64,000 nt of DNA from positions 2,294,001 through 2,358,000 of the forward strand of contig NZ_JAUSYG010000001.1 of assembly GCF_030816725.1 (NCBI RefSeq). Reading direction: 5' to 3'. Positions 49,129 to 64,000 of this stretch are shown here, one piece after another; position 1 is the first letter of the stretch; the number at the start of each line of letters is the position of its first letter. Origin of the DNA: Pseudarthrobacter defluvii (lineage in GTDB: Bacteria; Actinomycetota; Actinomycetes; Actinomycetales; Micrococcaceae). Below the pieces are notes generated by a model. That model worked only from the letters and a program-made list of their open reading frames with translations, had not been told where the DNA came from and did not search any database. A program made the position numbers and the translations under genes.

Positions 49129-49602
49129 GTGCAGCTAAGGCATAGCGCCTAGAAAAGCGGCTGGGCGTGCAGTTGAATTACCAGGAATCTCGAACATCGC
49201 TTCATGTGGCGCTCTTGCTCTACCGGTTGAGAGGGCTTCCGCATGATGTTGAAGAAAACGTGCTGGCGTGAAAATTCGGATGTGGCTTGCCAATAACGGG
49301 GCAATGACCCTCGTTGCTAGTGCACTGACCCTCGTCGCATATGGGGCTGTGGTCCGGATTTGGCCTTACGTTGTCGGCATGAAGGGCAATGGCCCTCGCT
49401 TGAATCGAAACTAACGCCATGACAGCGGGAAGGACGGCAGCGGTTACTCCTGACACGTGCCGGGAGTGCCCGAAGGCATTCCAGCACCGGTTCGCTCCTG
49501 ATCTACCCTGACGTCATACATCTCGGTGTCCACTCCGCCCACTAAGGAACCAAAGTTTGAGGACCACGCTGCTGGACCCGCCTTGGATCGAACGCATCTT
49601 GA
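49129..49602. other. intergenic stretch with short direct repeats
   Basis: About 470 bases. Two 17-base near-copies occur at 49301-49317 and 49322-49338 (both CACTGACCC/CAATGACCC followed by TCGTYGC), and a third partial copy lies near 49388. A minus-strand open frame covers them but has no family resemblance. Possibly the edge of an old mobile element. Confidence 0.4.
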
Positions 49603-50010
49603 TCAATTCACCATTGTAAGTTCAGACGACGACGGTTCGGAGAACACCGAGGCAAGGAAGGCCTTGGTGCGTTCGTTCTGCGGTTTGGTGATAGTCTGCC
49701 GGGCTGGCCCCCGCTCTATTACATAGCCATCGGCCATGAAGACCACCCGGCCGGCAACATCGCGGGCAAAGTTCATCTCGTGCGTGACCACAACCATGGT
49801 CATACCCGTCTTCGCCAAGTCCTTCATCACCTTCAGGACTTCCCCCACGAGCTTCGGGTCCAAGGCGGACGTCGGCTCGTCAAAGAGCATGAGCTGCGGC
49901 TCCATGCACAGACGCGGGCGATCGCCACCCCGCTGCTGCTGACCGCCGGAGAGCTGACGCGGATAGGACCGCGCCTTCTCGGTCAGCCCGACCTTCTCCA
50001 ACAAGGACAT
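49603..50010 (-). pseudogene. amino-acid ABC transporter ATPase, C-terminal remnant
   Basis: The frame keeps the second half of a GlnQ/ArtP-type ATPase: LSGGQQQR, then MLFDEPTSALDP (Walker B) and VVVTHEMNFARDVA. The N-terminal third with Walker A is missing. Between the signature and Walker B the residues GGDRPRLCMEPQ replace the usual VAIARALAMEPQ, showing a pair of compensating frameshifts. The remnant directly abuts the permease remnant, so an internal deletion removed the rest. Confidence 0.85.
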
Positions 50011-50013
50011 GGC

Positions 50014-50857
50014 TCACGCCACTGCTTTTACTTTCTTTTTCTTCCGGACCAGTCGCGGCGTCTCGATCAGGTTCTCCAACGCGACGATCAGCAACGGCGT
50101 AGTTTCGAGGGTCCGTGCGTAGATGATTTGCGCCGAATATAGCAGTTCCGGCACCGAGATAACGCTGACCAGCGCGGTTGTCTTAAGCAGGCCATCGTTT
50201 CGTTGCCCGTGGGCGCGATAGTCACGCGCATAGCCTGCGGCAGCACCACCCGGTGCATAATCTGCATCCGGGTGATGCCTAAGGCCTCGGCTGCCTCCGT
50301 CTGCCCGTGGTCCACCGAGAGGATGCCGGCACGGACATTCTCGGACATGTATGCGCCCTGGTTCAGACCCGGTCCCAGGATGGCGGCCATCATAGGCGTA
50401 ATCATTTGGTTCGCGTCCAGTTGAACGGGTGGATGGCGAACTTGATGACAGGGTACAGCGCCGCCAAGTTGAACCAGAACAGCTTGCACCAGCACCGGGA
50501 TGCCTCGGAAGAAGTTCACGTAGGCGTAGCGGCACCGCGACGATCGGGTTGGCCGCAAGTCGCTTGACTGCGAAACGACGCCGAGCACGATACCAATAGC
50601 CATACTGATCGCCGTCAAACCAGGCGTGACGAGAATGCCCCGGTCAATGGAATCATCGCGCAGATAGAGCCCGACGATTTCCCAGCCAAAGTTGGGGGTG
50701 GTCATTACAGAACGCAGCAGAAGCACGATCACAATAACGACGTCCGCGGACAGCCACCTGCGGGGATGTTTGGCCTTCAGAGCGGTATAGCCATCGCCGG
50801 TGGACGCTGCTAGCTCACTTCGGCTGGTCAGGGCAGTCGCGCTCTGCTTCCTCTCCT
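50014..50857 (-). pseudogene. amino-acid ABC transporter permease, multiply frameshifted
   Basis: Fragments of a HisM/GlnP-type permease are readable in different frames: SADVVIVIVLLLRSVMTTPN near the N-terminus, YVNFFRGIPVLVQ, then SENVRAGILSVDHGQTEAAEALGI with VVLPQAMR (the EAA loop), then TALVSVISVPELL. At least three frame changes join them. No start codon is found behind the binding-protein stop (GTA occurs where a start would be). The gene is inactive. Confidence 0.85.
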
Positions 50858-51805
50858 CTACTTCTTATCGAGGACTTCGGAGGTGACCAGGACGGACTTC
50901 GGAAGGCCCCATTTAACGCGCATTACCTCGTAATAGTTGCTGTCGAGGATGCTGCGGGTGGCCTCGGTGACCGCTTCCTTCAGCCCGCCGTCCTTAGCAA
51001 GGGCGATACCTGTGGGGACGGGCTCGTAGTCTTCTCCGGGCGCCAGTTCGAACTTGCCTCCAGTTTTCTTTGCCTGGTAGGCCAACGAGATGCTGTCTGC
51101 CACGACAGCGTCCACCCGACCGGATGCCAGGGCGAGGTTGGCGTCCGTTTGCCCGGGGAAGTTTTGGATAGTAAGAGGCTCCTTGCCTGCCGTCGTGCAT
51201 TGCTCGGAAAATTCGGGAAGGTACTCCATGGATTGGATTGAGCCCTTCTGACCGGCAATCTTCTTGCCACACATGCTCAAGGGGTCCATAAAGATTTTCT
51301 GAGGGTTTCCAGGCAGAACGGCGACACCGGAGCCGCCGTTGAGGTACTCCGCAAAGTCTACGATTTTCTCACGTTCCGGGGTGATCGAGAACGTCGACAT
51401 CGCCATGTCATACTTCCCGGAGGCCAGACCCGGCAGGATGGTATCGAACGTTGCGGGTACGTGCTCCACCTCGAGGCCCAAGGCAGCACCCACCGCGTCC
51501 GAGAAGTCGACGTCGTAGCCGATCATCGTCTTGTTGTCCGTGTCGTAGTACTCGAACGGAGCGTACGTCGGGTCCGAGGCCACACGCAGGGTTCCGGCTG
51601 CACGAATCTTCTCAGGCAGCAGATTTCTTGCCGCCTCGTTAAGCGCAACGGGTTCCGCGCCGGGAGTGGAGCCTTCAGAAGCAGCGGTACCTGCCGGCTC
51701 CGGGGCGGCCTGAGAGGCGTTGGTGCAGGCGCTCAGGGACAGGGCTAGCAGGACCGAGGCGACCAAAATGGTTGAGCGGGTGTCGCGGCGACGGGAATGA
51801 CGCAT
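50858..51805 (-). CDS. amino-acid ABC transporter substrate-binding lipoprotein (family 3)
   Basis: 315 aa from the ATG at 51805 (AAAGGA 6 nt upstream). A signal peptide ends in the lipobox LSLSAC. LRVASDPTYAPFEYYD, IGYDVDFSDAVGAALG and TFSITPEREKIVDFAEYL are typical of the PF00497 polar-amino-acid/ectoine-type binding proteins. It is first in a cluster whose permease and ATPase are dead, so it is an orphan unless another transporter accepts it. The neighbouring deacylase makes an acylated amino acid or ectoine a possible ligand. Confidence 0.9.
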   Translation of the reverse strand: MRHSRRRDTRSTILVASVLLALSLSACTNASQAAPEPAGTAASEGSTPGAEPVALNEAARNLLPEKIRAAGTLRVASDPTYAPFEYYDTDNKTMIGYDVDFSDAVGAALGLEVEHVPATFDTILPGLASGKYDMAMSTFSITPEREKIVDFAEYLNGGSGVAVLPGNPQKIFMDPLSMCGKKIAGQKGSIQSMEYLPEFSEQCTTAGKEPLTIQNFPGQTDANLALASGRVDAVVADSISLAYQAKKTGGKFELAPGEDYEPVPTGIALAKDGGLKEAVTEATRSILDSNYYEVMRVKWGLPKSVLVTSEVLDKK

Positions 51806-51872
51806 GTATTTTCCTTTCATGGTCCGGACCGCATTGTCCGGTAACGAATACCCGGCATTGATCAGGAGACGA

Positions 51873-52943
51873 TCAGTGCTTCGGTGCTTCAAATTCAGGT
51901 GCGATGTGCAGCAGGTAGCTGCCTATCGAGGCCAGGGAGGGCCGACGCAGGATGGCGACGATGCCATCCAACCTAGCCGTGTATTCCTGCGGTGCGCGCT
52001 CAAGGTCATCGATGGCGTGGACCCGGGCAACTGGATCGCCTGCCCGGACCCGCTGGCCCAAGCCCACCAGTGGCTCGAAGATGCCCGGAGTGGTGGCCAT
52101 GACCGGGGACTTGGGCACCAACTCCAACCAGACAGGCTCGGCGACCACCGTTCCGGCAGCCTGCACCTCGGTGAAGGGCTGGGCTGCCAGGACTCCTACG
52201 TGGGCGAGCAGCGAGCGCACGCCGCGCCGCGCATCCGTCAAGACGCCCGGATCCACGGTGCCTCCTCCGCCGAGTTCCGTGGACAGTGCCAGCACTCCCG
52301 CATCGTCGCCCGCGGTGCTGAGCGAACCAGGTTCCAGGCGGGGCTGTACCACGATCACATAGGGCAGTCTCATGGCCCGCGACGCGGAAACCTTCCGCTC
52401 CCAGGTCCGTTGGTCGGGCCCACGGTAGATGAACATGCTCGGCAGGTAGGTGGAGTTGGATCCGCCCGAGTGCAGGTCAATGACGACGTCGGCCTTCGGC
52501 AGCAGCGTGCCAGCGATCAGTTCGGCAACCTGGTCCGTGGGACCGCTGCGCGGCTGTCCTGGGTAGCTGCGGTTGAGGTTGCCGCCGTCGACAGGCGAAA
52601 CCCTGGTACCGGCCCGTACCGCCGGTGCGTTGGCTGCGGGCACGATGACCACCGTGCCGCTCAGATGCTCCGGTTCCAGCCATCGGATCATTTCCTGCAG
52701 AATCACTTGGCCTTCGTACTCGTCCCCGTGAGTGCCAGCCACTAGCAACGCCGTCGGCCCGGGCCCCGAGGAAATAACCGCAACTGGTACCGTGATCAGC
52801 CCGTTGTCATGAACGTTGTCTGAATGCGACAGGCCGGCAAAACCCAACTGCTTGCCGGCACGGCCCAGTTCGATGCCGTACAGTGCCGGACCTGACGTAC
52901 GCCGCTGGGTCTCAACGGCAATACCGGCGGTCAAGGGACCCAC
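51873..52943 (-). CDS. AstE/AspA-family zinc deacylase (EutE/DoeB-like)
   Basis: 356 aa from the GTG at 52943 (AAGG 7 nt upstream). VAGTHGDEYEG supplies the HxxE zinc ligands and VVIDLHSGGSN the third His, the signature of the succinylglutamate desuccinylase/aspartoacylase family. The C-terminal 90 residues form a small beta domain. Relatives remove acyl groups from N-acyl amino acids; in ectoine breakdown EutE/DoeB deacetylates N-acetyl-diaminobutyrate beside an Ehu transporter, an arrangement similar to this one. The start was probably shaped when the upstream Rieske gene decayed, since the two now overlap. Confidence 0.85.
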   Translation of the reverse strand: MGPLTAGIAVETQRRTSGPALYGIELGRAGKQLGFAGLSHSDNVHDNGLITVPVAVISSGPGPTALLVAGTHGDEYEGQVILQEMIRWLEPEHLSGTVVIVPAANAPAVRAGTRVSPVDGGNLNRSYPGQPRSGPTDQVAELIAGTLLPKADVVIDLHSGGSNSTYLPSMFIYRGPDQRTWERKVSASRAMRLPYVIVVQPRLEPGSLSTAGDDAGVLALSTELGGGGTVDPGVLTDARRGVRSLLAHVGVLAAQPFTEVQAAGTVVAEPVWLELVPKSPVMATTPGIFEPLVGLGQRVRAGDPVARVHAIDDLERAPQEYTARLDGIVAILRRPSLASIGSYLLHIAPEFEAPKH

Positions 52944-53248
52944 AGAAGAACCTTGGCTAGTACCGGATAATCGCGCACCTTTGCGTGTCCCGGGATCAAG
53001 GACTGCGCAGGCACTTTGGTGCACATGCCATTGGGACCACATGCGGAGCCGGGGTAGCCAGGTTCCAAAGAGTCGCCACCGGTGCGGCCCTTGGACAGCG
53101 GAAAGGCACGTTGGTCCGCCAGCGCGACGGCTCGTTTGTCCTGGGTGCCGAAATGGGCCATCGGCTGTTCGCACGTGGCCCGGTGAACAGGCTTAGGCTC
53201 CACTTCCACGGACAACGCCGCTCTGTGCCGATTGTTGAACGCATACAT
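52931..53248 (-). pseudogene. Rieske-type oxygenase (vanillate demethylase-like), decayed N-terminal fragment
   Basis: The frame from the ATG at 53248 aligns with the intact Rieske protein at 63651: CEQPMAHFGTQDKRAVALAD, RAFPLSKGRT, KVPAQSLIPGHAKVRDYPVL. Both pairs of iron-sulfur ligands are lost. The first, CAH in ADRCAHRAF, is deleted, leaving ADQRAF. The second, CGYHG, reads PGYPG. Only about 100 of some 350 residues remain; the deacylase gene overlaps the end. The 17-bp palindromic operator 21 nt upstream of the ATG is also shared with the intact gene. Confidence 0.85.
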
Positions 53249-53269: not shown

Positions 53270-53286
53270 TGTATACATTGTATTCG
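53270..53286. promoter_or_regulatory. GntR-type operator upstream of the decayed Rieske gene
   Basis: Plus strand TGTATACA-T-TGTATTCG. Read toward the gene it matches the operator at 63613-63629 in 15 of 17 positions, and both lie 21 nt before the ATG. It therefore looks like a fossil of the same regulon. Confidence 0.7.
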
Positions 53287-53473: not shown

Positions 53474-54907
53474 TCATCGCCAGGAGGTCGGACGGCGGGC
53501 GGCCCAGGGCCGCGCGGCTTCCACGGCGGCGCCAACGGTGAAGACCGTGGCGTCGTCGAACGGGTGCCCAACTATCTGGACCCCGGTGGGGATGCCGCAG
53601 TCGGCCATTCCGCTCGGCACGGCTAGCACTGGGCAACGGTTGGTGATATTGAACGGCGCCGTCATGTGGCCCTGCCAGTAATGCTCCAAATGCACGTCAC
53701 CGGCTTCAATCCCGTCAAGGTACATGCCGTCAGCCTCGAGCGCGGCAATGGCGGAAGCAGGGCAGATCAAGGCATCGAAGCCATCCATCGCAGCGGCCAG
53801 CTCAGCCTGGATGCGCGTCTCCGCTCTGATGCCGTCGACGAAGCGGTTGTCCTGTGCGGCTTTTCGGGTGTCAGCCATGAAGCGTTGGGTGTAGGCGGCG
53901 AGCAGTCCCCTTGAGTTGGCGGTCTCATCCTCGATGGTTGGGCCTAAAAGGTAGCCGAAATGCGTGAACACCGTCCGGCTGATTTCCTCGATGGTCCATG
54001 GCAGTTCAATCTCCTCCACCGCAGCTCCGGCTGCACCCAGGGCGGAGGCCACGGCGCGAGTGTTAGCCTCCACGTCCGGCGCAACGGGGTAGTTCCCCAG
54101 TCGGATGCACAGTGCCAACCGCATGCCGGCCACCGCGGCGGCGGCATCGGCAGCCGGAGGGCAGAACAGCGTGTGGCTGCCCGGGAGGGAGGTGTGGTCC
54201 CCGGGATGCCGGCCGGCCATGACGCTCGCCAGCAGCGCCGTGTCTGCGACGGTCCGCGCCATCGGGCCGTCGCCGCGATAGTGGTCGGCGGAGAGCGGGG
54301 CCAGGCCTGGAATCCGCCCGTAGGGCGCCTTGTACCCGACCGTCCCCGTGAACGAGGCCGGCAGCCGGGTTGAGCCGGCGATGTCGGAGGCGGTGGCGAG
54401 CGGCGCGAGGCCGGCAGCCAGCGCAGCGGCCGAGCCTCCTGAAGAACCCCCCGGGGAATACTGTGGGTTCCAGGGGTTGCGGGTGACGCCCCAAAGCGGG
54501 CTGTGGGTGACTGTGGCACAGCTGTATTCCGGTGTGGTCGTGCGGGTGTGAATGATTCCGCCCGCTCGCCGGATCCGTTCGATGACGGGGTGGTCCACCG
54601 GTGCCAGCTCGTCTCTCCGCGCCACTAGTCCCTGCGAGAGGGTGCGTCCCTTGAGTCCGTGTTTCTCCTTGGCAGCGATCGGCAGCCCCAGCAGCGGCGT
54701 CAGGTCCCTGCCGCGCGCGTATCTGGTAGCTGCCTGCTGTGCGGCGGGCAGCGCTTCCTCGAAAAGGGTTTCAGTCAGCGCGTTGATTTGGCCGTTGACG
54801 GCTTCCGTCCTGGCGATCACCGCTTCCAGGAGCTCCACAGGAGAAAGTTTCTGGGCACGGAAGAGTTGCAATGCCGTGACGGCGTCGAGGTAGTGGAGTT
54901 CAGTCAT
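53474..54907 (-). CDS. amidase signature-family hydrolase
   Basis: 477 aa. The Ser-cisSer-Lys triad is readable: K80 in PIAAKEKHGLKG, the GGSSGGSAAALAAGLAP block with S155/S156, and the nucleophile S179 in DIAGSTRLPA. The enzyme hydrolyses a C-N bond of a carboxamide, but the family is broad (aryl acylamidases, AtzE-like, GatA-like). I see no GatB/C partners, so a catabolic amidase is likelier than a tRNA amidotransferase. The start shares four bases with a short upstream frame (54904-55059). Confidence 0.9.
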   Translation of the reverse strand: MTELHYLDAVTALQLFRAQKLSPVELLEAVIARTEAVNGQINALTETLFEEALPAAQQAATRYARGRDLTPLLGLPIAAKEKHGLKGRTLSQGLVARRDELAPVDHPVIERIRRAGGIIHTRTTTPEYSCATVTHSPLWGVTRNPWNPQYSPGGSSGGSAAALAAGLAPLATASDIAGSTRLPASFTGTVGYKAPYGRIPGLAPLSADHYRGDGPMARTVADTALLASVMAGRHPGDHTSLPGSHTLFCPPAADAAAAVAGMRLALCIRLGNYPVAPDVEANTRAVASALGAAGAAVEEIELPWTIEEISRTVFTHFGYLLGPTIEDETANSRGLLAAYTQRFMADTRKAAQDNRFVDGIRAETRIQAELAAAMDGFDALICPASAIAALEADGMYLDGIEAGDVHLEHYWQGHMTAPFNITNRCPVLAVPSGMADCGIPTGVQIVGHPFDDATVFTVGAAVEAARPWAARRPTSWR

Positions 54908-55563: not shown

Positions 55564-56409
55564 CTATGCGATAGCTAATTGGTTTTCTTGCGTCCAGTTT
55601 TCCCAGTAGCGCTTCGGCGTCATGCCGTTCAGGGATCCATGGGGCCGTTCATGATTGTAGATAGCTTTCCATTCGTCGGCCAAATACTTGGCTTCGGCCA
55701 TGGTGTCCATGATTTCTCCGGAGAGTTGTTCCCTTCTGAACTGGGCGTTGAAGGACTCGATGAAGCCGTTCTGCCAGGGTGATCCCGGGTCAATGAAGGC
55801 GGTATCCACGCCGGCGGTGTTGCACCACTCAATCAGTGCGGCGGCGGTGAATTCGGGCCCGTTGTCACACCTCACGTAGGTCGGGGCGGTGCCGGTCTCG
55901 GCGATGATGTTCTCCAACACAGCGACCACGTCGGCGGCCTTGAACGACCGGCGCGGAATGACCGCCAGCGCCGTGCGGGTGTATTCGTCGATGACGTTAA
56001 AGAACCGGATGTGCCGTCCGCAAGAGGTCACATCGGACTGGAAGTCGAAACTGACCACATGCATCGGGTACTGGGCAGTTAGGCGCTTCTGTTCACCGGC
56101 GCCGGGCCCGGTCCGGCGCTTCTTCCTCGCCCGGGGTTTACAGACCAGGCCTTCATCGCGCCAGAGCCGTCGCACCCGCTTCCTGTTCAGCACCACGCCG
56201 TCCCACTCAGGCTGAGCCAGCAGGTGCCAGCGCACCTTCCGCCAGCCCCACGCGGGGTGCTGCCCGGCGACGGCGCGCAAGGCTGCACGGAGCCGGGCTT
56301 CCTCAAAGCCCATATCGGGCTTCTTCTTGCGGAACGCGGACCGGTTCTGCCCCAGCACCGCGCACGCGAAACGCTCGGACGCCCCGAACTTCTCCACCGC
56401 CATGCGCAC
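55564..56409 (-). CDS. IS3-family transposase OrfB (DDE integrase core)
   Basis: 281 aa from the ATG at 56409. An N-terminal HTH_21-like segment (RLRAALRAVAGQHPAWGWRKV) precedes the rve core with the catalytic triad: D in VSFDFQSDVT, D in RCDNGPEF and E in GFIESFNAQFR. The C-terminal block YNHERPHGSLNGMTPKRYW is typical. The same frame is open upstream to 56439, where a -1 slip joins it to OrfA, so the active enzyme is probably the OrfAB fusion. Confidence 0.93.
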   Translation of the reverse strand: MRMAVEKFGASERFACAVLGQNRSAFRKKKPDMGFEEARLRAALRAVAGQHPAWGWRKVRWHLLAQPEWDGVVLNRKRVRRLWRDEGLVCKPRARKKRRTGPGAGEQKRLTAQYPMHVVSFDFQSDVTSCGRHIRFFNVIDEYTRTALAVIPRRSFKAADVVAVLENIIAETGTAPTYVRCDNGPEFTAAALIEWCNTAGVDTAFIDPGSPWQNGFIESFNAQFRREQLSGEIMDTMAEAKYLADEWKAIYNHERPHGSLNGMTPKRYWENWTQENQLAIA

Positions 56410-56432
56410 GGCACGACGGCGGGGTTCGGGGC

Positions 56433-56711
56433 TCAGAATTTTCCCTTGGCCACCTCGTTCAGGATGTCGATGGCCAGTTCCTTCTCCGCCAGCAGCCGCT
56501 TAAGCCGGGCGTTCTCTTTCTCCAGCTCCTTGGTCCGTTTGGACGCCTCGGCGTTCTTCTCGGACCCGTACTGGTTCAACCACCGATACCAGGTCGCCTC
56601 GGTAACCTGGAGCTCCTTGATTACCTCGACCATCGGGCGCCCGTCATTGAGCATCTTCTGGCCCTGCCGGACCTTGGCGATGACCTGCTCAGGGGTGTGT
56701 CTGCGTGCCAT
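56433..56711 (-). CDS. IS3-family transposase OrfA
   Basis: 92 aa starting MARRHTPEQVIAKVRQGQKM. A helix-turn-helix (VIKELQVTEATWYRWLNQYG) is followed by a leucine-zipper-like helix (KRTKELEKENARLKRLLAEK). It binds the IS ends. GGAGG lies 13 nt upstream of the chosen ATG. It ends AKGKF-stop; the heptamer G-GGA-AAA at 56445-56439 lets some ribosomes slip back one base and continue as KILSPEPRRRAVRMAVEKF into OrfB. Confidence 0.9.
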   Translation of the reverse strand: MARRHTPEQVIAKVRQGQKMLNDGRPMVEVIKELQVTEATWYRWLNQYGSEKNAEASKRTKELEKENARLKRLLAEKELAIDILNEVAKGKF

Positions 56712-56766
56712 GATTCGTGAATTTCCTCCTGCGTCCATTCTCGGACACGAAACTCACACAAACACT

Positions 56767-57759: not shown

Positions 57760-58287
57760 AAGCTCCCCGTTATGCAGACCACGTCGAGGAATCCCTGCTC
57801 GGTCTTCCTCGCGACCACTACCGCGTCGTACCGCAATAATGGCTCCAGTTCTTCAGCGTGGCCGCTGACGTTGGTTTGCCCGTGCAACAAGATTCCCGAC
57901 TGCCCTTTGAGGATGGATAGGTATGGTCTCGCCGAAAATCAGTGATAGACGTAAAACACTTGAAGCTGCCTGTTCGCGTGATCATGTTTAAATCCTTGAT
58001 GCCACCGCTGGGGAGGGATCCGTGGACCATGTCCTCCCGGGAGCAAAGGAACGGCGGATGCTTTGCCACACGCCGTTCCCAGTCGTCCCCTGCCAGCACC
58101 AGGTAATCTGCCTCGATAACGGTAAACACGCGTTCGTCATGCTCACCAGCCAGTACCAGTCATGGCTGGACCTGACTGGGACTGGCGCGCCGGACGCTGC
58201 AGCCGGCAGGACGGACATTTCCCGCGTGACACCACCGCCGTTGCGCCAGGATTGGACCTTCAGCTCTGCAAAGCGAATGATATGCAT
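57760..58287 (-). pseudogene. HutD/Ves-family protein, frameshifted
   Basis: The first frame from the ATG at 58287 reads MHIIRFAELKVQSWRNGGGV, TREM and DWYWLVSM, the HutD opening. The middle (RVFTVIEADYLVLAGDDWERR, GSLPSGGIKDLNMITRTGSF) lies in another frame from about 58129. A third frame near 57890-57770 contains YDAVVVARKTEQGFLDVVC, like the family's end. About a dozen residues expected between SM and RVFTVIE are missing. HutD-like proteins are cupins associated with histidine use and with nucleotide pools. The start overlaps the opcA stop as TGATG, so it once formed part of the zwf-opcA operon. Confidence 0.7.
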
Positions 58288-59189
58288 CAGCTCAGCCTCG
58301 ATAGAGAGCTTCCAAAGACTTCGTCGGGGTCGAGGCGGCGGAGTTCCTCGGCAAGGCATTCGCTTAGGCTGCGGCGGGGCAGCGAGATCCGTTGGGCGGG
58401 CTGGCCCGGCTGGGTCAGCTCGGCGACGGACAGTCCAGGACGGAAGAGTTGGACGTCGCCGCCGGGGCGGGTGAGCCGGACGCGGCGGATGCCGGTTCCG
58501 GCGGGGTCCGCCACGATGGTGACGGGTGCTTCCAGGGCGAGGGTGAGCCAAGCCGCGAGGAGGATGGTGGACGGGGAGTCCGAGGCACCCTCGACGGCGA
58601 CGGCGGTCACCGGCGAGGAATCGACTCCGTCCAGGGCGGCTGCGAGCTGGATCCGCCAGTTGGTCAGGCGGGTCCAGGCCAGATCGGTGTCCCCGGCGCG
58701 GTAGGTTTTGTGGATTCTCTCCAGTGCTGCCTGCGGGTCCGGCTCGTTGGCGGAGTCGGTGATCCGGCGGTGCGCGATCCGCCCGATGGAGGTTTCGCAG
58801 GCGTTTTCCGGGGCACCGTGCGGCCACCAGGCCACGATCGGCGCGTCCGGGAGCAGCAGCGCGGCCACCAGGGATTCGTTTTCGTGGGCGAGCTGGCCGT
58901 AGCCGCGCAGTACGATCACCTCGGACGCGCCGGCGTCCCCGCCCACCCGGATCTGGGCGTCGAGCCGGTCCGCTGCGTCGGCTCCGGCGTCGGCCAGGAC
59001 GATGATCCGGCAGGGGTGTTCCCGGCTGGCATCGTTGGCGGCCTCGATCGCTTCTTCCTCAAGCCCGGACTTGGTGACCACCACGAGGGTGAGCACCCGG
59101 CCCAGGGCGATCACGCCGCCCTGCTCGCGCAGGGCCATGAGCTTCTTGGAAACGTTGGAGGTGGTGGTGTCCGGCAGGTCTACAATCAT
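58287..59189 (-). CDS. opcA: glucose-6-phosphate dehydrogenase assembly protein OpcA
   Basis: 300 aa. The family blocks MIVDLPDTTTSNVSKKLMAL, RIIVLADAG and PDAPIVAWWPHGAP are clear. OpcA is an allosteric partner that activates glucose-6-phosphate dehydrogenase in cyanobacteria and actinobacteria. The start overlaps the zwf stop as ATGA, the usual coupling of the pair. The C-terminus overlaps the start of the hutD-like pseudogene by one base. Confidence 0.95.
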   Translation of the reverse strand: MIVDLPDTTTSNVSKKLMALREQGGVIALGRVLTLVVVTKSGLEEEAIEAANDASREHPCRIIVLADAGADAADRLDAQIRVGGDAGASEVIVLRGYGQLAHENESLVAALLLPDAPIVAWWPHGAPENACETSIGRIAHRRITDSANEPDPQAALERIHKTYRAGDTDLAWTRLTNWRIQLAAALDGVDSSPVTAVAVEGASDSPSTILLAAWLTLALEAPVTIVADPAGTGIRRVRLTRPGGDVQLFRPGLSVAELTQPGQPAQRISLPRRSLSECLAEELRRLDPDEVFGSSLSRLS

Positions 59190-60739
59190 GGCCTTCTCCA
59201 GGTTCGTCCGTCGCGGGCCAGCAGCTCATCGGCAGAGGCCGGGCCCCAGCTGCCCGGGGGGTAGGGTTCGGGCTGTTCGTCCAGGGTGGCCCAGTAGTCC
59301 TCGAACGGGTCAAGGATCTTCCAGGACAGCTCCACTTCCTCGTGCCGCGGGAACAGCGGCGGTTCGCCCAGGAGCACGTCCAGGATCAGCCGCTCATAGG
59401 CTTCCGGGGAGGATTCGGTGAAGGAGTGGCCGTAGCCGAAGTCCATGGTGACGTCGCGGACTTCCATCTGCGTGCCGGGAACCTTGGAGCCGAACCGGAT
59501 GGTCACGCCCTCGTCGGGCTGGACCCTGATAACCACGGCGTTCTGGCCGAAGTCATCCTCGCCGTGGTCGCGGAACAGCAGGTTCGGTGCCCGTTTGAAG
59601 ACGACGGCGATCTCGGTCACGCGCCGTCCCAGGCGCTTGCCCGCGCGCAGGTAGAACGGCACGCCGGACCAGCGGCGGGTATGGATGTCCACCCGGATTG
59701 CGGCGAACGTTTCGGTGGTGGAGTCGGCCGGGATGCCTTCTTCCTCCAGGTAGCCCTGGACCTGTTCGCCGCCCTGCCAGCCGCCGGTGAACTGGCCGCG
59801 CGCTGAGTGCGTGGAGAGGTCATCGGGGAGCTTGACGGCTGCGAGGACCTTTTCCTTCTCGGCGCGCAGGTCATCGGCGTTGAAGGAGATGGGCTCTTCC
59901 ATCGCGGTCAGGGCCAGCAGCTGGAGCAGGTGGTTCTGGATGACGTCGCGGGCCGCGCCCACGCCGTCGTAATACCCTGCACGGCCGCCGGTGCCGATGT
60001 CCTCTGCCATGGTGATCTGGACGTGGTCCACGTAGTTGGCGTTCCACAACGGCTCGAACAGCTGGTTCGCGAAGCGCAGAGCCAGGATGTTCTGCACCGT
60101 TTCCTTGCCCAGGTAGTGATCGATCCGGAACACCGCGTCCTGCGGGAACACCGACTCCACAATGTCGTTCAGCTGCCGGGCCGACTCGAGGTCGTGCCCG
60201 AACGGCTTCTCGATCACCACACGCCGCCACTTGTCCCCCTCGGCCTGCGCCAGGCCGTGCTTGGACAGCTGCCGGCAGACCTGCTCGAACCCCTTGGGCG
60301 GGATCGAGAGGTAGAACGCGTGGTTGCCGCGGGTGCCGCGGACATCATCCAGTTCCTTAATGGTCTCGCCGAGCTGCTCAAAGGCGCCGTCGTCGTCGAA
60401 CTCACCCTGGACAAAACGGATGCCCTCGGACAACTGGTTCCACACCGCCTCATCAAAGGGCGTGCGCGCGTAGGCCTGCACGGAAGCCTTCACCTGACCG
60501 GCGAAATCCTCATCAGTCCACTCCCGGCGCCCAAAACCCACCAGCGCAAAGCTCGGCGGCAGCAGCCCGCGGTTGGCCAGGTCATACACGGCCGGCAACA
60601 GCTTCTTCCGGGCAAGATCCCCCGTTACCCCAAAGAGCACCAACGACGACGGACCGGCAATCCGGTTCAAACGGCGGTCACGCGGATCCCGCAATGTATT
60701 ACGCCGGGGGCGTCGCCGTGTGCAAGTAGGGTCAAGCAC
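59186..60739 (-). CDS. zwf: glucose-6-phosphate 1-dehydrogenase
   Basis: 517 aa with the chosen GTG start. VLFGVTGDLARKKLLPA is the NADP-binding loop and FRIDHYLGKETVQNIL holds the catalytic His-Lys region. The enzyme oxidises glucose-6-phosphate to 6-phosphogluconolactone and yields NADPH. The start is uncertain: GTG at 60739 has AAGGAG 12 nt upstream, whereas an ATG at 60841 overlaps the preceding small gene as ATGA but adds 34 residues unlike the family. Placed behind the RuMP genes it could run an oxidative cycle for formaldehyde or regenerate NADPH for the Rieske oxygenase system. Confidence 0.93.
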   Translation of the reverse strand: MLDPTCTRRRPRRNTLRDPRDRRLNRIAGPSSLVLFGVTGDLARKKLLPAVYDLANRGLLPPSFALVGFGRREWTDEDFAGQVKASVQAYARTPFDEAVWNQLSEGIRFVQGEFDDDGAFEQLGETIKELDDVRGTRGNHAFYLSIPPKGFEQVCRQLSKHGLAQAEGDKWRRVVIEKPFGHDLESARQLNDIVESVFPQDAVFRIDHYLGKETVQNILALRFANQLFEPLWNANYVDHVQITMAEDIGTGGRAGYYDGVGAARDVIQNHLLQLLALTAMEEPISFNADDLRAEKEKVLAAVKLPDDLSTHSARGQFTGGWQGGEQVQGYLEEEGIPADSTTETFAAIRVDIHTRRWSGVPFYLRAGKRLGRRVTEIAVVFKRAPNLLFRDHGEDDFGQNAVVIRVQPDEGVTIRFGSKVPGTQMEVRDVTMDFGYGHSFTESSPEAYERLILDVLLGEPPLFPRHEEVELSWKILDPFEDYWATLDEQPEPYPPGSWGPASADELLARDGRTWRRP

Positions 60740-60837: not shown

Positions 60838-61047
60838 TCATAGAGGGCACAGCAGGACACCGTCCTCCCGTAGGAAGAGCCGCCGATGGGCTGTCCCATT
60901 CTCGATCACCCAGATGAGCTCGCCCTGATTGCCGACTTGATCGACTCGGCCGGAGTACTGAAATGATTCGGAAAACCATACTTCGATGTCGTCTCCGGAG
61001 CTCAATGCTTCCCACCGTGATACGGGTTGTCTTATAGGTCGTGACAT
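60838..61047 (-). CDS. small conserved-looking protein, unknown
   Basis: 69 aa starting MSRPIRQPVSRWEALSSGDD. Segments IEVWFSESFQYSGRVDQVG and LIWVIENGTAHRRLFLREDG alternate in a way that suggests a small SH3-like beta barrel. I have no family name. Its stop overlaps a possible zwf start at 60841 as ATGA. Confidence 0.5.
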   Translation of the reverse strand: MSRPIRQPVSRWEALSSGDDIEVWFSESFQYSGRVDQVGNQGELIWVIENGTAHRRLFLREDGVLLCPL

Positions 61048-61148
61048 CGAAGTTTCCGCTCTCAACACTCGTCCACTCTGGATTGACGTGCGTCTGTCCA
61101 GTGAACGTCAGGGTTTTTAGTTGTCGGGTTCGTAGCAGGGTGGACGTA

Positions 61149-61179
61149 GCGGTCCGCACCTTTGACAGGCGCGGACCGC
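61149..61179 (-). terminator. hairpin behind hps
   Basis: A 9-bp perfect stem GCGGTCCGC/GCGGACCGC (61149-61157 and 61171-61179) lies 19 nt beyond the hps stop on the minus strand. No U-run follows. Termination is likely but not strong. Confidence 0.5.
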
Positions 61180-61197
61180 CACACTTTAGGGGCCTTC

Positions 61198-61821
61198 CTA
61201 GCCGATCGCAGCCCGGAGTTCTTTGGCTGCCAGGGCGGGGTCAGCTGCGGCGTAGATAGCGCCGCCGGCAACGGCGACCTCCGCTCCGGCACGCTGCACG
61301 GCTTCGATGGTCGAGAGTTTCACGCCGCCGGCAACGGAGAAGGGGACGCGGGCTTCCTCCCCTGCGCTGAGCAGGCCGTTCAGGTCATAGCCGGGCTGGG
61401 CCTGCTCATCCAGGCCAGCGTGGAATTCGACGAACTCCGCACCGAGAGCGTGGGCTTCCTTGGCACGGGTTACTTTGTTTGCCACGCCGATGAGGTCAAC
61501 GACGATGCCTTTGCCATGTGCCCGGGCGGCTTTGATGGCGCCCGCGATAGTTGAGTCGTCCGCGGTACCGAGCACGGATACCAGGTCTGCGCCAGCCGTG
61601 AACGCGATGTCCGCCTCAAGCTCCCCCGCGTCCATGGTTTTCATGTCCGCGAAGACAATCTTGTCCGGGTGCGCTTCCTTGACAGCCGTGACGGCGCCCA
61701 GTCCGGCAGCCTTGATCAGGGGTGTGCCCAGTTCGATGATGTCTACGTATTCAGCGACCTTGCCAGCGAGTTCGAGTGCGTCCTCGACGGTGAGCAGATC
61801 CATTGCGACTTGGAGTTTCAT
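61198..61821 (-). CDS. hxlA: 3-hexulose-6-phosphate synthase
   Basis: 207 aa from the ATG at 61821. MKLQVAMDLLTVEDALELAG, IELGTPLIKAAGLGAV, VFADMKTMDAGELEADIAF and the later FHAGLDEQAQ and VAGGVKLSTI are the orotidine-decarboxylase-superfamily blocks specific to HPS. It condenses formaldehyde with ribulose 5-phosphate, the first step of the ribulose monophosphate pathway. The isomerase gene lies just upstream in the same operon. It probably serves formaldehyde detoxification and assimilation. Confidence 0.95.
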   Translation of the reverse strand: MKLQVAMDLLTVEDALELAGKVAEYVDIIELGTPLIKAAGLGAVTAVKEAHPDKIVFADMKTMDAGELEADIAFTAGADLVSVLGTADDSTIAGAIKAARAHGKGIVVDLIGVANKVTRAKEAHALGAEFVEFHAGLDEQAQPGYDLNGLLSAGEEARVPFSVAGGVKLSTIEAVQRAGAEVAVAGGAIYAAADPALAAKELRAAIG

Positions 61822-61882
61822 AAGGGTTCTTTCTGTAGGGATGTGGAGGGTAAGAGGAAAGGCGGCAGTTGAGCCCTGCCTG

Positions 61883-62482
61883 CTACTCGAGATTCGCGTG
61901 CCGGGTCCACAGCTGATCGGCAGGGATTTGGGCTTTCTCCCATAGGGCCTGGAAGACCGACTCGGCAGCGAGGAACAGCACTTGTTCGAAGAGGCTTCCG
62001 GAATACTGTTGGGACGCCCCGGATCCGTGGTCAGTTTTTTGCGGGGCAGGAACAATTACCAGAGTGTGCGCCAGTGCGCCCAGCGGTGAGCCCGCGTTGG
62101 CCGTGAAGGCTGCAACACGGGCGTCGGCCTTGACCGCAGTTTCTCCGGCCCGCACGACACCTGATGTTGTTCCAGAGCCGGAAGCCACTAACAGCAGGTC
62201 GCCGGCTCCAATTGCGGGAGTGGTGGTGTCGCCCGCGACGTGGACGGTCAGGCCAAGATGCATCAAACGCATCGCAGCCATGCGCAGGACAAGCCCGCTC
62301 CGGCCCGCCCCTGCCACGAAGACGCGAGGGGCCCCGGCAAGCTCTCCGGCCAGAGCGGCGAGTTCTTGAACGCTGACCCGGGCTGCAGTGTCTGCAACCT
62401 CGCCCTGAATAAGCGAAAGGCTGCGAGAAATTGCCCCCACAGTTCCGGCTTGGACAGGGCTCACTTCTGAAACGCTCGGCAT
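61883..62482 (-). CDS. hxlB: 6-phospho-3-hexuloisomerase
   Basis: 199 aa. The SIS fold is shown by VFVAGAGRSGLVLRMAAMRL and LLLVASGSGTTSGVVRAGETA. KTDHGSGASQQYSGSLFEQVLF and the final block (LWEKAQIPADQLWTRHANLE) are typical of PHI. It converts 3-hexulose 6-phosphate to fructose 6-phosphate. First gene of the hps-phi operon. A 17-bp TGTATACA-type palindrome lies 65 nt upstream of its start. Confidence 0.95.
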   Translation of the reverse strand: MPSVSEVSPVQAGTVGAISRSLSLIQGEVADTAARVSVQELAALAGELAGAPRVFVAGAGRSGLVLRMAAMRLMHLGLTVHVAGDTTTPAIGAGDLLLVASGSGTTSGVVRAGETAVKADARVAAFTANAGSPLGALAHTLVIVPAPQKTDHGSGASQQYSGSLFEQVLFLAAESVFQALWEKAQIPADQLWTRHANLE

Positions 62483-62546
62483 GTTGCTCTCCTTTGAGCT
62501 GCTACTGGCTTGGGCACCTTAATACCTCCGGCAAGGCATTGCCCCT

Positions 62547-62563
62547 TGTATACACTGTATACA
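62547..62563. promoter_or_regulatory. GntR-type operator TGTATACA-C-TGTATACA
   Basis: Two perfect TGTATACA octamers (each self-complementary) separated by one base, upstream of the hexuloisomerase gene. The same element lies between the GntR gene and the Rieske gene (63613) and before the decayed Rieske gene (53270). Confidence 0.8.
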
Positions 62564-62804
62564 GGCGCCGCGGTTGTGGTCAAGTGGATTTGGGGGCAGG
62601 GTCAGTTTGCTCTGGCCAGCTGTCCGAGGAACCTATGTTGAAAGGCGCACGGCGACGGGTTGAGGCGGCAGCTACGTCCCCGGGTCGGGGTGTTCGCGGC
62701 AGGTATAGTTACGGACAGCGTGGCAACGGGCTCGAAGCCCCATAGCCATCGTGTGTTGTTAGGCCGCTTGGGTCACTAGGCCGTAGCAGCTTGCATCTGA
62801 CGCG
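62564..62804. other. gap between the phi promoter and the GntR stop
   Basis: About 240 bases that contain no supported gene. A short plus-strand open frame has no start signal. Confidence 0.4.
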
Positions 62805-63467
62805 TCAGTTGGCGGGCGCAGCTTGCGCGCGGGTCGGGTCAGTCACGTCATGGCAGTGCCGCAGGAGTTCGATTGCCTGGTCCGCATCCCCGTTTTTAAG
62901 CGCATTGAGGATGCGGCGATGGTCATCGACCACCTTGTTCTGGTACTCCTCACCTTGACGGTAAGTCATTGTGATGCGCTTCTGAATGGGGTGGTTCCAT
63001 ACGGAAGTGAGGACACTGAGCAGAAAGCTGTTGCCGGCAGGTCCGACGAGGGCTATGTGGAAGGCCTGGCCCAACCGGAACAGCTCCAGGTTGTCCGACG
63101 GGTCGATCAGGGCGGTCTCCTCAATGAGGCTACTCATGCGCAGCATTTGCTGAGGAGTGTAGTGCCCACATGCGCGGTGTACCGCGAGGGCTTCGAGGGC
63201 ATAGCGAACGTCAAAGACGTCAGCGATTTCGCTTTCATCGAGCTGATTGACGACGTACCCGCGTCCAGGGACGAGTGTTGTAAGCCCCTCCAGCGTCAAC
63301 CGGGTCAACACGTCGCGGACGGGAGTGCGTGAAACCCCATACTGGGCAGCGACCTGTTCCTGAACGAGTGCGGTTCCGGACGCTATTTTCCCGGTGGCGA
63401 TATCAGCCGTGATGAGATCGTAGACCTTCTCGGCCAGCGGCCGGAGATCCTTCAGTTGTACGGCCAT
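62805..63467 (-). CDS. GntR-family (FCD/FadR subgroup) transcriptional regulator
   Basis: 220 aa from the ATG at 63467 (AGAGG 4 nt upstream). The winged helix shows VQEQVAAQYGVSRTPVRDVLTRLTLEGL and the wing LVPGRGYVV. The FCD ligand domain follows with FDVRYALEALAVHRA, LFRLGQAFHIALVG and DDHRRILNAL, whose Asp/His residues form the usual metal site. FCD regulators respond to carboxylates; VanR-type members respond to vanillate. It is divergent from the Rieske gene with a TGTATACA palindrome between them. The same site upstream of phi suggests it also controls the RuMP operon. Confidence 0.92.
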   Translation of the reverse strand: MAVQLKDLRPLAEKVYDLITADIATGKIASGTALVQEQVAAQYGVSRTPVRDVLTRLTLEGLTTLVPGRGYVVNQLDESEIADVFDVRYALEALAVHRACGHYTPQQMLRMSSLIEETALIDPSDNLELFRLGQAFHIALVGPAGNSFLLSVLTSVWNHPIQKRITMTYRQGEEYQNKVVDDHRRILNALKNGDADQAIELLRHCHDVTDPTRAQAAPAN

Positions 63468-63612
63468 GGCACCTCTGCTTTCGGTTTCTGCAATTTTGTC
63501 ACGAAGTAGTTCCCCCCAAGCCGTCACTGCACTGGCGCGTAACTGGATGAGGACACAACAGCACTGCCCTGCCGGCTGCGAGAGAAAAGCACTTGACCTG
63601 AGTCACAAGGTC

Positions 63613-63629
63613 TGAATACAGTGTATACA
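63613..63629. promoter_or_regulatory. GntR-type operator TGAATACA-G-TGTATACA
   Basis: A 17-bp near-palindrome, one mismatch from the 62547 element's octamer pattern, 21 nt before the Rieske oxygenase start and in the divergent promoter region of the GntR gene. Confidence 0.8.
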
Positions 63630-63650
63630 CTCAATTGGAGGAGAACAAAG

Positions 63651-64000
63651 ATGTTTGTCTTAAACACGTGGTACGTGGCGGCATGGTCCACGGACGTTTC
63701 CCGCAAGCCCATACGGCGAGTGATCTGCGCGCAACCGATTGTCCTTTTCAGGACACAGGACAACGAGGCGGTGGCGTTGGCTGATCGTTGTGCCCACCGT
63801 GCCTTTCCGCTTTCTGAAGGTCGGACAGTTGGCGACTCGGTGGAGTGCGGCTATCACGGGTTTACCTATGGATCTGATGGGGCATGCACGCGTGTCCCCG
63901 CCCAAACTTCGATTCCGGAGCGGGCCCGGGTTCGCAAGTACCCGCTCGTTGAAAAAGACGGCTGGATCTGGGTCTGGACGGGCGATGCCGAGCTGGCAGA
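63651..64000 (+). CDS. Rieske [2Fe-2S] aromatic oxygenase, vanillate O-demethylase type (runs off right edge)
   Basis: N-terminal 116 residues of a protein normally about 350 long, with GGAGGAG upstream of the ATG. FVLNTWYVAAWSTDVSRKP is the family opening. The Rieske cluster ligands are ADRCAHRAF (CxH) and VECGYHGFTY (CxxH). It matches oxygenase components of vanillate and related methoxy-aromatic O-demethylases, which release formaldehyde using electrons from a reductase (not in the window). Neighbouring hps and phi fit that product. Other Rieske substrates cannot be excluded from the N-terminus alone. Confidence 0.9.
   Translation, partial: MFVLNTWYVAAWSTDVSRKPIRRVICAQPIVLFRTQDNEAVALADRCAHRAFPLSEGRTVGDSVECGYHGFTYGSDGACTRVPAQTSIPERARVRKYPLVEKDGWIWVWTGDAELA

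Follow-up and report, generated by a model that had tools for sequence, protein, structure and literature searches.

A predicted GntR operator shared by phi-hps and a VanA-family Rieske oxygenase operon in Pseudarthrobacter defluvii

In the non-methylotroph Burkholderia cepacia TM1, 3-hexulose-6-phosphate synthase (HPS) and 6-phospho-3-hexuloisomerase (PHI) cope with formaldehyde from vanillate demethylation, as reported in a passage of a review that also describes the Bacillus hxlAB operon as controlled by HxlR, which responds to formaldehyde itself (PMC8879981). Here we analyze a 64,000-nucleotide stretch of DNA from the soil actinobacterium Pseudarthrobacter defluvii (GCF_030816725.1, contig NZ_JAUSYG010000001.1, positions 2,294,001 to 2,358,000, forward strand), referred to as the window. 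Its right end carries the phi-hps genes, a gene for an FCD-type GntR regulator, and the beginning of a gene for a VanA-family Rieske oxygenase. The gntR gene, a predicted operator, the Rieske gene, an ABC importer, and a VanB-type reductase gene are together referred to as the module. HPS and PHI would handle demethylation formaldehyde as they do in B. cepacia TM1, but here a shared GntR operator provides the link, and the substrate is probably something other than vanillate. The regulated hps-phi operon resembles that of Bacillus, with the difference that HxlR senses formaldehyde, whereas the sensor here would be a catabolic GntR protein. Like VanAB, the module pairs an oxygenase having Rieske and VanA_C domains with a VanB-type reductase. 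It differs from the PadR-Rieske-VanB-MFS cassette on a plasmid of Rhodococcus ruber MSA14 (L223), which is called van from annotation, in regulator family, transporter, and clade, and the two Rieske proteins are ~39% identical. Genes of the Hut pathway (hutH, hutU, hutI, hutF, hutG, HutD) adjoin the Rieske gene in several relatives; the Rieske enzyme here would differ in supplying histidine to that pathway, which is not known to include a Rieske enzyme. We propose that the module encodes an FCD-GntR-controlled demethylase for an N-methylated histidine-type compound, the formaldehyde being captured by HPS/PHI, a reading from the DNA that we hold to be about evenly balanced between right and wrong. 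To judge from our searches, the novelty lies in an operator common to both units, in how narrowly this is distributed, and in the histidine link. Among the literature matches listed, judged by titles, abstract starts, and term counts, we found no case of a shared operator and recognized none that connects Rieske enzymes to methylhistidine or hutU.

Operator sites and the adjacent regulator

The first-pass annotation had reported 17-mers before phi-hps and between gntR and the Rieske gene. Both are present, with zero and one mismatch, respectively, and a third match that it had missed lies ahead of a dead Rieske relic with two mismatches (Table 1). When TGTATACAnTGTATACA was searched at up to three mismatches in the whole 4,580,739-base genome, these three places, all before module genes, were the only ones found, and there were no control matches. 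The copy before phi-hps is the sole exact site in the genome. In the window, TGTATACANTGTATACA at the same tolerance has three matches against 0.03 expected, a number reached by none of 100 shuffles. A weight matrix built only from the Rieske operators in 26 other genomes, that of this strain being excluded, gave the three sites its top three scores (33.6, 31.5, and 27.4), the best of 20 Markov resamplings of the window being 9.7.

We then inspected the promoters. A scan of positions 61000-63700 revealed two sites (0.6 in shuffles), one before phi-hps and one before the Rieske gene, which have the same hexamers and spacing. In each of these two live promoters, the operator covers the -10 element. 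Identical promoters with an operator over the -10 element fit repression by the adjacent FCD-GntR protein. By a permissive pattern, TTGAC occurs 12-18 nt ahead of a half-site in all 26 other module loci; the same pattern was looked for beside the site at 53270, and none was found. The operator repeats are 9-bp-spaced palindromes TGnATnCA, and in relatives the sites often overlap at a distance of 9 bp. Short operator repeats at close spacing have a precedent in the FCD-type GntR protein NanR, whose operator is (GGTATA)3 rather than such palindromes and carries several dimers, according to an excerpt of PMC8012715.

The protein encoded between the two live operators has a helix-turn-helix and an FCD domain, in agreement with the first-pass call of an FCD-type GntR gene; its start was chosen by comparison with DNA of Pseudarthrobacter sp. 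HLT1-5 (G357). By eye, GTATAC in the operator fits the FadR-subfamily consensus NyGTM-N0-1-KACNy as given in an excerpt of PMC4494728. Module Rieske orthologs (at least 83% identity) were found in 23 of 295 family genomes and 5 of 206 genus genomes, own genome included in each, and all 26 other module loci were fetched. The five module components occur together in 26 of the 27 loci, the exception being L065, whose contig ends inside the gene for the substrate-binding protein (SBP). An operator within two mismatches lies between the GntR and Rieske genes in 26 of 26 other loci. In a wider set of 35 loci, all 19 that have an adjacent GntR gene show a site within four mismatches among the 300 bp upstream of the Rieske gene (8 within two mismatches, 5 at three, and 6 at four), and 0 of the 16 that lack one do, their best matches having 6-9 mismatches; three of the 16 (L181, L184, and L189) offer less than 300 bp of contig upstream. 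Since site and GntR gene co-occur across loci, we infer that the GntR protein binds the operator, and the regulator acting at both operators is most likely the FCD-GntR protein encoded between them. Two Brevibacterium loci have a second operator ahead of a deacylase-importer operon. In G210, a one-mismatch operator (L068, 9648) is flanked by a further GntR gene (41%) and a further SBP gene (49%), and its position suggests a paralogous regulon.

The operator before phi-hps

The hps and phi genes named by the first-pass annotation are adjacent, and both products score over NCBIfam equivalog cut-offs. The zwf-opcA genes follow downstream, as it stated, and all four genes are on the minus strand. 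A single hps copy was found in this genome (one match, E<=1e-30). The phi operator is conserved at one mismatch in Pseudarthrobacter sp. HLT1-5. When the phi upstream DNA of the two strains is aligned, conservation is seen at the operator, a TTGACC, and the ribosome site, and the alignment is poor elsewhere. HLT1-5 has a second hps-phi pair elsewhere, which has no operator. In a tree, the hps-phi pairs of this strain and HLT1-5 are sisters (0.919) and group with those of G310 and G335 (0.999). These patterns point to native hps-phi genes captured by the module's regulon in a local rewiring, and the operator link would most simply have arisen in an ancestor of this strain and HLT1-5. A formaldehyde-fixing operon would thus have moved under the control of a predicted formaldehyde-making enzyme, a change that can be traced between species, and poison and antidote would be switched on together.

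Several results weigh against a general role of HPS/PHI in the module. PHI was found (1e-20) in 6 of 23 module genomes plus 4 of 4 further genus members, i.e., 10 of 27, and the operator precedes hps-phi in just two of the 27, this strain and HLT1-5; the PHI loci of eight other module genomes have no site within four mismatches. Of the 27 module genomes, 25 encode a mycothiol-dependent formaldehyde dehydrogenase that passes its cut-off, with two copies in this strain, so HPS/PHI is not essential to the module. The first-pass proposal of an operator joining hps-phi to a VanA-family Rieske gene stands for this locus, where the promoter geometry is the same and a second species shows it again, and is confined to that pair of genomes: a check of related promoters recovered the Rieske operator in all 26 other module loci and the phi operator in one other species only.

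The same narrow distribution would also be seen if, in a single ancestor, the module had inserted next to phi-hps-zwf-opcA and its promoter had been duplicated or carried over without function, and HPS, found in 34 of 61 genus genomes, is native to the genus. This explanation is very improbable, as the operator, a TTGACC, and the ribosome site were kept while the other phi upstream DNA diverged, and the phi-hps copy is the one that matches exactly. Moreover, G096 shows an independent adjacency of phi-hps and module: its phi-hps belongs to another tree branch and has the usual hps box, though the operator is absent.

We also scored 24 other phi upstream regions by the matrix; the set represents the loci fetched, not all HPS-bearing genus genomes, and includes a distant homolog (L121). 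Twenty-three score below 0. The remaining one (L105, in G307) scores 16.6, above the resampling maximum; this partial operator lies across the region of the phi GTG start, ~40 bp ahead of the phi match, and is a chance match or a remnant, no Rieske module being listed for G307. By eye, many phi upstream regions (L103, L105-L117, L119, L120, L131-L134, and L052) share one of two boxes, CCTACCC-N4-GGGTGG-like or CCTTAAGTGTAG...GTCAGAAAACAGNGTTACCC-like, which are perhaps sites of a formaldehyde-responsive regulator.

Substrate of the Rieske oxygenase

The Rieske gene call of the first-pass annotation is confirmed by a Rieske and a VanA_C domain. Extension to the right also located the reductase subunit, a VanB-type protein encoded beyond the ABC importer, so that the pair has the domain make-up of VanAB. 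Residues C47, H49, C66, H69, D154, H157, H162, and D289 are invariant among 17 sequences. The vanillate, veratrate, or syringate substrate proposed earlier finds no support. Six same-family proteins, 68-81% identical to the L223 VanA-like protein, form a clade apart from the Rieske protein of the module. A second candidate VanA, encoded on a Streptomyces plasmid beside pobA and pcaD, is ~42% identical and also lies outside. The tree separates the Rieske protein from both with a local support of 0.999, its VanA references being annotated or candidate rather than biochemically characterized proteins. The operon partners are an importer of the polar-amino-acid type (SBP_bac_3), a HutD-like gene, and, in most relatives, a DoeB-like deacylase gene.

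The VanA_C domain and VanB-type reductase would also suit a vanillate-type aromatic O-demethylase that methoxy-aromatics induce and whose regulon includes formaldehyde capture, and the nearest solved structure by sequence is the dicamba O-demethylase DdmC. HPS/PHI activity rises on vanillate in B. cepacia TM1, according to the review passage (PMC8879981). Arthrobacter sp. C2, which has a module ortholog (L159), is reported to carry two genes annotated as vanillate O-demethylase oxygenase, and in its lignin comparisons an annotated oxidoreductase is reported to change 1.45- to 2.51-fold (excerpt of PMC9327799). The sister hps-phi copies of G310 (L102) and G335 (L104) lie beside an aromatic-type cluster with FAA hydrolases and an FAD monooxygenase (Pfam run on L104 only); P450, ferredoxin, and reductase genes follow in G335 and are absent from the fetched G310 stretch. 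This cluster perhaps encodes another demethylase with a formaldehyde trap. Nevertheless, the vanillate-type reading is clearly improbable given the tree position and the operon partners, and 15 of 23 module genomes carry a ~40%-identity protein of the L223 sort besides the module protein, two of the 15 (G105 and G022) having been placed in the tree. In addition, the dicamba-carboxylate residues, as mapped by eye, are not conserved in the alignment, and dicamba was set aside as a substrate. PMC9867520 reports a divergent vanillate demethylase from actinobacteria, and an excerpt of it makes no mention of GntR.

The genes around the Rieske gene in relatives point to histidine instead. Of 62 loci, 53 have a HutD-like gene on the same strand as the Rieske gene, 43 of them no farther than 250 bp downstream; none of 20 hps control loci has one. 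The AlphaFold model of the HutD-like protein has a pLDDT of 87.7; its best Foldseek match is 1yll (PA5104, presumably a HutD; TMq 0.65), and HutD 5fcc ranks 41st (TMq 0.59). In L187 and L188, from closely related uncultured bacteria, hutH-hutI-hutU face IclR-Rieske-hutG-like genes, and TGATG and ATGA junctions (overlapping start and stop codons) occur in both. In L046, from Arthrobacter sp. CAU 1506 (same contig as L149), the far side of gntR carries hutI, hutF, an M20 hydrolase gene, hutU, and hutH. Planosporangium (L199, sister clade, 53%) has hutH, hutU, and an M20 gene within 10 kb. By a rough reckoning, a hut cluster would be expected within 10 kb of such a gene in ~1 in 200 genomes, so that three hut-adjacent lineages among ~60 loci are suggestive, not proof.

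Several observations speak against the histidine link. Most other Foldseek matches of the HutD-like protein are ordinary cupins at lower TM. The protein has no Pfam match in this strain and so falls below the PF05962 gathering cut-off; in relatives, L189 reaches 17.8 against 25 bits, and L195 and L056 have none. L187 and L188 are mutually close, their hutG-like protein is below cut-off, and the GntR operator, importer, and HutD-like gene are not in view there. In this genome, hutU is ~1.5 Mb from the module. The presence of hutU in all 27 module genomes was rejected as evidence, because 241 of 295 family genomes (82%) have the gene anyway.

As hps-phi implies formaldehyde and the hut genes imply histidine, an N-methylated histidine is the simplest compound satisfying both. 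An N-methylated histidine-type compound is thus the most likely substrate as judged from gene context, and in relatives with the deacylase it is perhaps N-acylated. A more specific version is a dedicated pathway for 1- or 3-methylhistidine, possibly N-acylated, in which a Rieske imidazole N-demethylase feeds Hut and HPS/PHI is wired into the GntR regulon in two Pseudarthrobacter-group species; we put it forward tentatively, with more doubt than confidence. Linkage of the Rieske gene to hut genes in relatives would also suit a histidine-linked enzyme with another substrate, either a histidine betaine of the hercynine/ergothioneine type or an imidazole that is hydroxylated without formaldehyde release. 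In Streptomyces sp. LHD-70, downstream of the reductase gene lies a gene for an FAD enzyme close to N-methyl-L-tryptophan oxidase (247.4 bits, cut-off 257), which would suit the removal of additional N-methyl groups. Such substrates are rather unlikely, however: the SBP_bac_3 importer is not of the type usual for betaines, and hps-phi coupling in two species argues for formaldehyde. Ectoine was considered from DoeB-like and Ehu-like profile matches and rejected, as these score below their cut-offs (DoeB-like TIGR02994, 230.9 against 402.7 bits); a literature search joining ectoine, Rieske, EutE, and catabolism found no paper.

In the proposed pathway for an N-methylated histidine-type compound, the FCD-GntR protein would repress both promoters from the palindromes seen over their -10 boxes, and arrival of a ligand would free the Rieske operon and phi-hps. 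The polar-amino-acid-type ABC system would import the substrate, which in most relatives a DoeB-like deacylase may first release from an N-acyl form. The Rieske oxygenase and VanB-type reductase would take off the methyl group as formaldehyde, as expected from their family and the hps-phi coupling, and the histidine product would enter the Hut pathway, as the gene neighborhoods in relatives suggest. HPS and PHI would fix formaldehyde onto ribulose 5-phosphate, and zwf-opcA would route the product into the oxidative pentose pathway, in line with established pathway knowledge. Methylhistidines are common in muscle-derived nitrogen, and the Rieske reaction, if the proposal is true, would be a first step for their use by bacteria. 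The proposal gives a testable substrate class to a Rieske family that its VanA_C domain would label vanillate demethylase, and cautions against assigning a lignin-type function from this domain alone.

Gene inventory, decayed copy, and related loci

The features are collected in Table 1. The Rieske gene runs beyond the window, and the rest was read from L005. Gene names rest on hidden Markov model or tblastn matches unless marked by eye, and neighboring genes were chosen by a GC3 rule, which can miss genes or pick wrong frames.

Table 1. Positions of operators, promoters, and genes (window numbering unless L005 is given)
Feature	Position	Strand	Sequence, profile match, or remark
Operator before phi-hps	62547-62563	-	TGTATACACTGTATACA; listed as TGTATACAgTGTATACA
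Operator between gntR and Rieske gene	63613-63629	+	TGAATACAGTGTATACA; listed as TGAATACAgTGTATACA
Operator match ahead of Rieske relic	53270-53286	-	
phi-hps promoter	62554-62583	-	TTGACC-18-TACAGT; promoter scan, consensus match only
Rieske promoter	63593-63622	+	TTGACC-18-TACAGT; promoter scan
FCD-type GntR regulator gene	62805-63467	-	PF00392 + PF07729
phi (hxlB), 6-phospho-3-hexuloisomerase	61883-62482	-	TIGR03127 225.4 bits, cut-off 160
hps (hxlA), 3-hexulose-6-phosphate synthase	61198-61821	-	TIGR03128 251.8 bits, cut-off 200
zwf	59186-60700 (start approximate)	-	TIGR00871 649.2 bits, cut-off 400.6; downstream of hps
opcA	58287-59189	-	TIGR00534 225.8 bits, a little below cut-off 256.25
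VanA-family Rieske oxygenase, 350 aa	63651-64000, past window end; L005 1652-2704	+	PF00355 + PF19112
HutD-like gene (148-aa protein)	L005 2707-3153		after Rieske gene
SBP (SBP_bac_3)	L005 3203-4132		
Permease	L005 4148-5098		
ATPase	L005 5095-5892		
VanB-type reductase	L005 5894-6850		Fer2 and NAD-binding matches; downstream of ABC importer
IclR gene	L005 6807-7733		
Rieske relic	52931-53248	-	aligns to residues 1-102, without CAH motif
DoeB-like (AstE/AspA) deacylase	51873-53174	-	PF24827; true start probably ~70-95 residues in
Rest of decayed copy	49562-51811	-	SBP open reading frame open (50858-51811), permease in two frames, ATPase matching only from residue 111

The relic belongs to a decayed second copy of the module at 49.6-53.3 kb. 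Blocks of this copy share 83-85% identity with the G062 and G122 modules, against 73-77% with the live module, and its Rieske fragment is 73-76% identical to the G062 and G122 modules, which suggests that the decayed copy was acquired separately from the live one. The relic seems to end within a HutD-like gene tail, the tail match being weak (E 0.002). The DoeB-like deacylase of this copy matches 6twm at 2.8e-57. Such a deacylase gene follows in 21 of 27 module loci and is missing from L046, L054, L126, L127, L128, and the live copy here. An IS3-family transposase pair of open reading frames (55564-56738) adjoins the decayed copy and an amidase gene. Between a LysR gene and opcA, two open reading frames in different frames (57818-58827) each partly match HutD (PF05962) below cut-off and may represent a broken HutD gene.

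The Rieske family occurs in several actinobacterial genera. In Streptomyces sp. LHD-70 (L177, 4626-8703 and 16635-17744), the module is flanked by a LysR gene, an MFS transporter gene, an amidase gene, and the FAD enzyme gene, and the amidase resembles that of the window (53474-54907). A sister Rieske clade (51-56%; L070-L075 and L190-L199) has its own importer and mostly a HutD-like gene. Several of its loci include genes for an FMN alpha-hydroxyacid dehydrogenase and a GlcD-like protein, and in L195 a gene resembling that of histidinol-phosphate aminotransferase stands ahead of the Rieske gene.

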